Shown here: positions 27,634 through 30,433 of the stretch, one piece after another
How the letters are laid out: every line of letters starts with the position of its first letter
Position numbering within the stretch: position 1 is the first letter of the stretch
Origin: Pseudothermotoga thermarum DSM 5069
GTDB taxonomy: Bacteria; Thermotogota; Thermotogae; Thermotogales; DSM-5069
Assembly: GCF_000217815.1 (NCBI RefSeq)
Contig: NC_015707.1
Coordinates: 1,352,014-1,416,013, forward strand
DNA length: 64,000 bases
Reading direction: 5' to 3'
Translations under genes and position numbers: made by a program
Notes under the pieces: model-generated
Database searches by the model: none
Told to the model about the DNA's origin: nothing
Seen by the model: only the letters and a program-made list of their open reading frames with translations

Positions 27634-28537
27634 TCAAATCTTGTATTTGGAAGCCAATTGCTCCAAGTCAGAGACAATTTGATTGAGTGCTTCTGTGATA
27701 TTCAACAAGCTTTTCGTTTCATTGGTTTGCTGTTCTACTGCTGTTGAAACTCTCGAAAAATCTGCTTTCAAAGTCTCGACGTTGCGAACTATTTTATCCG
27801 TGGCGGCAGCTATCTCTTGAACTGCTCCGCTTTGCTCTTCACTTGTCGCAGCCAAATCGTTTGTTAAAGAAGAAAACTTATCTATTTCTTTTACCATTTC
27901 GCTTATATCTTGCACCGCTTCTTCCATGATCTTTACAACATTTCCAAGTTCTTGAGTGACATAACCCCCGCCTTTGGCAACTGCATCTGTCAACTCCATG
28001 ATATTTTTCAGAGTTTCTGAAATGGCTTGTGTTGACCTTTTGCTTTCCTCAGCAAGTTTTCTTATTTCGTCCGCAACAACTGCAAATCCACGTCCTGCTT
28101 CTCCAGCTCTTGCTGCTTCTATTGCCGCGTTGAGAGCCAAAAGGTTTGTTTGTTCAGCTATGCTAGATATCGTGTTTGTAATCACTTCTATTTGCTGGGA
28201 CATTTGAACAAGTTTCTCCATAATTGCCATGGCTTGTTTGCCTGTTGTAGACAGCAAATTCACGTTGCTTGCAAGGTTTTGAATTGAGGAAGACGCTTTC
28301 TGACCTTTCTGTTTCAGCTTTTCCACGCTTTCTGCAAGTTTTGCAGCATTTTTGGCAACGTTTTCAGCTCCTGACGAAATCTCTTCTACCCCACTGTTAA
28401 CCTCGCTTATAGACTCTGAAATCTCACCTATTAGCTTGGTCGTTTCTTCTGCCAGTTGATTCACATCCTGAGACAAACTTGTGGCTTTCTGCACATTTTC
28501 AACAAGTTTATTTGAAAAATCCGTTGCACTATCTTGG
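27634..28537 (-). pseudogene. C-terminal half of an IS-split chemoreceptor
   Basis: Encodes the cytoplasmic signalling half of a methyl-accepting chemotaxis protein, including [20 protein letters not shown] and [19 protein letters not shown]. It lacks sensor, TM and HAMP segments, which lie beyond the insertion sequence at 28542-29261. A GTG at 28494 could start a 286-residue soluble fragment, but no good ribosome site precedes it. Joining this part to the N-terminal half after removing the IS and one ACCT copy restores one continuous frame. Confidence 0.93.
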
Positions 28538-28541
28538 ACCT

Positions 28542-29261
28542 GTCAACTTAAGAAGGAAAACTGCACTAATAGAAGAAATGGAAATAGCCACTTCACTATG
28601 TCCTCATCCCTCCTCTTGTACCATAACCTGCTTATGTTAAAACGCCTCAGCCTGTACCTTTTTATCCCTATCACGCTCTCAACAAGACTCCTCTCCCCAA
28701 ACCTCTCATGCTCGTGTTCCCAATATCCCATATTCTCTTCGCTCGCTTCCCAGTACCATGGCCCTTTGTCCGTTATTATCCTCAACTTACCTGTCACTCT
28801 CTTCTTCACCATCTTCATCACCAAGCTCGCTTTGTCCTTCTCTCGCGTTTTGCTGACCAACGCATAGATCACTTTCTTCCTCTTAACCTCAAACGCTATC
28901 CATACATACCAGCAGTAACCGTTTATGTTCACCTTCATCTCGTCTACAGCTACTACTGCATTGCCTTCTATCTTCTCAGCAAATATCTCTTCTTTCATTC
29001 TTGCCCACCATTTCCTCAAGGCTTCATGACTGACTCCAATTATGGCTGCTGCCTTCCTTAATGCAAGTCCATAAAAGTACAAAACCAATGCAGATACTTT
29101 CGCCTCATGTGGAACTCTTTGTCTTTGAAAAAGGTTTGGTATAATTTGGTATAGGTACTCGGTGATATTTGTTGTTGTAACTTTCATCTTTACGGGAACC
29201 TCCTTTCGGTGAGAAGAGTTGGTTCCCGTTTATTTTATCGTATTTCCCGGCTTAAGTTGAC
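28542..29261 (-). mobile_element. 720-bp insertion sequence interrupting a chemoreceptor gene
   Basis: The ends carry an 11-bp perfect inverted repeat, GTCAACTTAAG at 28542-28552 and CTTAAGTTGAC at 29251-29261. Outside them is the direct repeat ACCT (28538-28541 and 29262-29265), a 4-bp target duplication. One transposase gene fills the element and its stop codon lies within the left repeat. The transposase looks IS6-like, but that family usually makes 8-bp duplications, so family placement is tentative. Confidence 0.93.
28543..29187 (-). CDS. DDE transposase, IS6-like
   Basis: 214 residues. The N-terminal helix-turn-helix reads LALRKAAAIIGVSHEALRKWW. A DDE catalytic core follows, with acidic residues in VVAVDEMKVNINGYCWYVW, RIITDKGPWYWE and SLVESVIG. 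The GPWY after the second Asp recalls archaeal ISPfu-type IS6 transposases. AAGGAGG precedes ATG 29187. The frame is intact over the whole element, so the copy may still be active. Confidence 0.87.
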   Translation of the reverse strand: MKVTTTNITEYLYQIIPNLFQRQRVPHEAKVSALVLYFYGLALRKAAAIIGVSHEALRKWWARMKEEIFAEKIEGNAVVAVDEMKVNINGYCWYVWIAFEVKRKKVIYALVSKTREKDKASLVMKMVKKRVTGKLRIITDKGPWYWEASEENMGYWEHEHERFGERSLVESVIGIKRYRLRRFNISRLWYKRRDEDIVKWLFPFLLLVQFSFLS

Positions 29262-30340
29262 ACCTCCTCTTTCAAATTAACGATTTTTGCTATGCTATTT
29301 CTTAAATTTTCAACAAGCAGGATAAGGACTTTTGAGAGCTGTCCAGTTTCATCTCTGCTTTTTACTTCGAATTTACCGGTAAGATCACCCGAAGCAATTT
29401 GTTTTGAGAATTCCGTCAAATCAAGTATGGGTTTTGTGATGACCCTTCCAAATAGAAAACCTATTACAATACTTACTAAGACTGCTACGGCTGTTGTAAG
29501 AACACTCTTTTTCAACGATGCAATAAAGGGGGCGTTGAGCTCAGATTCAAATATTCCAGCGCAAAGCATCCATTCGGCGCTCTCAACAGGTGCCATTGCA
29601 ACCAATCTTTTTATCTTTTCAAAAACGTATGAAACGTACGAAACAGATTTTTTGGCTATTTGCTCTTCAATTGGTTTCAAAGCAGGATCCAACTCTGAAA
29701 GCTTTTTTGAAACGTATTCTTCCTTTGGATGTGCAACAATTTTCCCTGTAAAATCGCTGATATAAGCATATCCTGTTTGTCCATATTTAACCGAAGAAAC
29801 AAAATCCTGCAAAAGTTTTTGTGGCATCACCGCGCCGAAAACACCTTCTGCTACTCCTTCGTAAGAATAAACTGGAACGGCAAAGACTATTGATTTAACT
29901 CCTTCCCAGTTGATTCCTGTAGCCACAAAATAGGATCTACCTTCGTTAATAATTGCATTGAAAAACCCCATTTGAGACAGATCTATTTCCTTGTCCTTCA
30001 AGGTGTAGGCTTTACCCTCGAAATTTGCAAAAAACCAATCCACAAATCCCAGTGGCTCAAGTTGATCTATCTTCGCTTTCAATGTCATCGTGACAAAACT
30101 TTTTTCAAAGAGCATGAGAAAAGTCTGAAAATCTGCCGAAATAGTGCTCAGAGTAGCAAGCCTACTTTTTATCCAATTATCAACTATTAACGATTCTTTT
30201 TCAGCTTTTTGCTTCAAGCTGTTTACAGCGGAATTCAACGATAGATTTCTGATTTCAAGAAGGTTGACAACAGTTAGCACTGCTGCGGTGAGAACAACCA
30301 AAAGCAAAACCAAACTTATCACTTTAAACCGAATTCCCAC
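29252..30340 (-). pseudogene. N-terminal half of an IS-split chemoreceptor
   Basis: From GTG 30340 (AGGAGG 8 bp upstream) this part encodes a TM helix (about 5-27), a Cache-type extracellular sensor (about 30-270), a second TM helix and HAMP (about 285-345). The coding frame enters the insertion sequence and stops two codons inside it. The undisturbed gene would have been about 660 residues. As it stands it gives a membrane sensor stub without a signalling domain. An upstream in-frame ATG at 30373 overlaps the ribosome site region and is less likely. Confidence 0.93.
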
Positions 30341-30433
30341 ACACTCAACCTCCTTTTGAGAACATTTCTTCATTTCGTTTTCATTGTATCATAAAGTAGT
30401 AGTTAAAAATAGTATAAAGCAGGAGGTGAAAAG

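Follow-up and report, generated by a model that had tools for sequence, protein, structure and literature searches.

A putative archaeal-type IS6-like insertion sequence interrupts a chemoreceptor gene of Pseudothermotoga thermarum and has sister copies with target duplications of differing length

The type strain of Thermotoga thermarum, LA3/DSM 5069, is a motile thermophile (PMC4148951), and its genome is a single contig of 2,039,943 bp. Within the stretch of 64,000 nucleotides analysed here (the window; G+C about 40%), an open reading frame encoding a transposase lies between two others that encode the parts of a chemoreceptor, all on the minus strand. The upstream frame (29252-30373) contains the sensor (5′) half of the receptor gene (29272-30340), which comprises a membrane segment, a dCache domain and a HAMP domain (Pfam dCache_1, 4.6e-22; HAMP, 3.2e-8); its start codon, GTG at 30340, was chosen from homologs beginning MGIR. 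The downstream frame (27634-28494) belongs to the signalling (3′) half (27634-28531), which carries the MCPsignal domain (Pfam MCPsignal, 2.3e-41). The transposase gene (28543-29187) encodes a 214-aa protein with a DDE domain (Pfam DDE_Tnp_IS240, 1.3e-6, above the curated cut-off). No stop or frameshift was found in either receptor half, confirming a preliminary description of the locus as a chemoreceptor gene split by an insertion sequence (IS) with an intact transposase and otherwise free of lesions.

The sensor half is 53–56% and the signalling half 65–71% identical to homologs, and the homologs compared are all single genes of 656–694 codons. In domain order and length the interrupted receptor resembles other dCache-HAMP-MCPsignal chemoreceptors of the Thermotogota, such as L070 in genome G010 and a paralog elsewhere in the T. 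thermarum genome (L032; 53% identity to the sensor half and 71% to the signalling half), but these genes are intact whereas the receptor in the window carries the IS. Synteny of the locus with the best homolog, in G010, is not conserved, and strict orthology is therefore not claimed. Another chemoreceptor gene (L034; G000:C1, about 994658-996524, minus strand) is apparently frameshifted near its second membrane segment: the sensor part is out of frame with the HAMP/signalling part, and no IS separates the two; this appears to be either a mutation or a sequencing error.

The ends of the IS are shared by its other copies in the genome, the termini GGACCTGTCAACTTAAG...CTTAAGTTGACACCTCC being found at 25 of 25 left ends and 23 of 24 right ends. 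Ends of one type have GGACC before TGTCAACTTAAG in all 25 cases, and ends of the other have GGAGG in 23 of 24. The preliminary description had placed the IS at 28542-29261 (720 bp), between two copies of a 4-bp target duplication, ACCT. ACCT is indeed present at both places, but the similarity among the ends of the copies continues past the 720-bp core, so that ACCT belongs to the imperfect inverted repeats of the element, as part of termini conserved genome-wide, and is not a target duplication. The element thus spans 28536-29267 (732 bp, minus strand), and the true duplication is TCTT, with its left copy at 28532-28535 and its right copy at 29268-29271, immediately outside the conserved IS end. 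The length of 4 bp given earlier was right by coincidence only. Flanking repeats should be compared with other copies of an element before a target duplication is named. The TGA stop codon of the transposase gene falls within the terminal inverted repeat; its readthrough, across 28543-28494, would fuse the transposase and the signalling half.

Removal of the IS and one TCTT rejoins the halves into a dCache-HAMP-MCPsignal gene in a single frame of 656 codons plus a stop, with the insertion point just after the HAMP domain. At the join the rebuilt frame reads ...VNLK followed directly by DSATDF..., and a multiple alignment is ungapped there in 10 of 10 homologs. When excision lengths of 0–14 were scored against three homologs, a length of 4 was best (1918, 1888 and 1401), and a length of 1 was the runner-up (1910, 1879 and 1394). 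Mispaired flanks match over at least 4 bp in 4 of 342 cases; a 4-bp match is weak by itself, and the case for the duplication at the receptor site depends on homology at the join. For the receptor, a duplication of 8 bp was ruled out, since the flanks do not agree over that length and the reading frame would be broken. Simple excision is predicted to give the empty-site junction ...CACTATCTTTCAAATT...; a scan of genome contigs for an empty site returned only a distant match in Robinsoniella, and the search of the genus covered only the T. thermarum genome.

At least 19 two-ended copies of the element are present in the genome, five of them full-length with an intact transposase. The receptor copy is identical over 732 of 732 bp to a copy near 1,108,785, about 270 kb away, and 99.9% identical to a copy near 1,930,719. 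The copies near 1,511,254 and 468,814 form a second identical pair, which matches the receptor copy at 99.0% identity. The transposase protein is identical in three copies and 98% identical in two more. This near-identity supports recent transposition, and, together with the rebuilt frame and the ungapped homologs, bears out the earlier proposal that the insertion in the receptor gene is recent. The further proposal that the element is active is supported indirectly, by the two pairs of copies that are identical although they occupy different sites. The other complete copies, of about 490–870 bp, have in common a 23-bp deletion, which disrupts the transposase frame, and unrelated sequence lies inside two of the deleted copies. 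Because some of these derivatives carry their own target duplications despite the broken frame, they were probably mobilized in trans by the intact transposase. Such deleted, non-autonomous derivatives occupy at least 13 loci (for example L058, L063, L041 and L013), several of them in recurring size classes.

We conclude that, very probably, a hitherto intact chemoreceptor gene was recently hit by a 732-bp archaeal-type IS6-like element, which left a duplication of TCTT. The target DNA would have been cut with a stagger of four bases, the transposase would have attached the IS ends to it, and TCTT on either side of the IS would stem from repair. The insertion would inactivate the receptor, leaving a membrane sensor that lacks its signalling domain and, unlinked to it, a signalling fragment. 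A chemoreceptor sensor half without the signalling domain can make no contact with CheA/CheW, and the signalling half has no membrane anchor; receptor function was likely lost through the insertion.

Both halves are still open, and the signalling half follows the transposase TGA directly, in the same direction and frame, so that readthrough or reinitiation is conceivable. The halves might then still work as separate genes, the receptor being split or the signalling fragment soluble, and the IS acting as a spacer. We regard this as improbable: the homologs compared are without exception single genes, the sole start of the 3′ half is a GTG with no obvious Shine-Dalgarno sequence, and so little time has passed since the insertion that open frames do not imply selection. 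It is more doubtful still that TCTT matches by chance and that a small rearrangement accompanied the insertion. Adjacent deletion, for example, is a known outcome of IS6-type replicative transposition, and some IS copies in the genome have no detectable duplication, but at the receptor, once exactly four bases are excised, length and frame agree with those of the homologs with no gap. A 720-bp IS with an ACCT duplication in a receptor originally of 660 residues can practically be dismissed, since, although ACCT stands on both sides of the core and its excision does give the predicted in-frame protein of 660 aa, ACCT occupies the same place in other copies at unrelated sites and the excision adds four residues, EEVQ, that are found in 0 of 10 homologs and are missing from the 656-aa receptor.

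The insertion with a TCTT duplication is one of several in which the duplicated length could be read. Eight of the 19 complete copies have exact duplications, of 4, 4, 5, 6, 7, 7, 8 and 9 bp, and a further duplication of 9 bp contains a single mismatch. The chance of an exact match of at least 4 bp, taken from the mispaired flanks, is about 1% per copy, and eight duplicated copies were reached in 0 of 20,000 shuffles. Lengths of 4, 6, 8 and 9 bp are independently supported by interrupted genes: the chemoreceptor gene (4 bp), an OppD-like ATPase gene that is ungapped at the join as compared with a solved relative (6 bp), a gene conserved at 84–89% across the family (8 bp) and a ROK-family gene (9 bp). 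The second 4-bp case, AAAT, is at the copy near 1108785 (L055) in an ABC-permease gene, whose full frame is not restored. Once four bases are excised there, the residues FLVPN match those of homologs exactly. The frame is lost some 15 bases beyond; alignment with homologs suggests that about 17 bases were deleted separately, about 15 bases from the insertion. As FLVPN is restored and the loss of frame can be ascribed to that deletion, AAAT is counted as 4 bp, with lower confidence.

The element shares with bacterial IS6/IS26 members a single transposase gene over nearly the whole IS, a match to DDE_Tnp_IS240 (29 against a cut-off of 27, just above) and ends of the form GGnnnTG (GGACCTG and GGAGGTG). 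Unlike them, it scores well below the cut-off of the NCBIfam transpos_IS6 model (68.9 bits against 125) and lacks E-DH---K, the IS6/IS26 signature at the third catalytic residue (PMC6807381), where its sequence is SLVESVIGIKRYRLRRF. Its duplications, of 4–9 bp, are not fixed at the 8 bp that IS6 members are described as producing (PMC7986276).

In contrast, its 732 bp and 214-aa transposase fall within the ranges tabulated for the archaeal IS6-like group (IS of about 700–780 bp, transposases of about 211–233 aa; PMC6807381), and are close to the 735 bp of ISC735 and ISSis1 and to archaeal transposases of 214–215 aa. The ends of archaeal elements (ISC735, ISC774, ISSis1 and the ISH14/ISH17 type; PMC6807381) begin with GG and have TG at positions 6–7, as here. 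When a collection of plasmids was searched, 15 records matched, nearly all archaeal and mostly haloarchaeal, with a best identity of 35%; within that collection, the nearest relatives of the T. thermarum transposase are thus DDE transposases on archaeal plasmids, a match to one Roseomonas record being weaker. The third catalytic block, read directly from the sequence, is E--I---R-R here and E--F---K-R in the archaeal group, and W then F residues (KWLFPF) were read in the same way. The element also differs from that group in its bacterial host (Thermotogota) and in duplications that range from 4 to 9 bp within one element. Because size and ends fit the archaeal group, IS6 models score below cut-off and an 8-bp repeat is not the rule, it is filed, from sequence, as a putative archaeal-type IS6-like element outside IS6/IS26 in the bacterial sense. 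The archaeal IS6-like group should, according to the authors of PMC6807381, stand apart from IS6/IS26.

A search of 103 genomes of the phylum found close relatives outside T. thermarum in one genome only, as fragments (60% identity over 52 residues). That genome (G101) is of the same class and another family; its fragments of a related element (L099 and L106) have 60% and 56% transposase identity, and their ends share the TGTCAACTTAAG core. These fragments hint at horizontal spread.

Disruption of a receptor gene by an IS is an ordinary event, and the variable duplication is mildly interesting. Literature searches turned up no paper that deals with the T. thermarum element, and none on duplications of varying length within its group. 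Duplications of 4–9 bp from a nearly identical IS, as against a constant 8 bp in IS6/IS26, suggest a flexible spacing of strand transfer, an explanation that we favour with some reserve; the variation in length is directly testable. A single complete genome with at least 19 two-ended copies and duplications of 4–9 bp bears on the place of archaeal-type elements in IS6/IS26 (PMC6807381). Flexible spacing, if true, would favour placing archaeal-type IS6-like elements in a family of their own that has a distinct mechanism.
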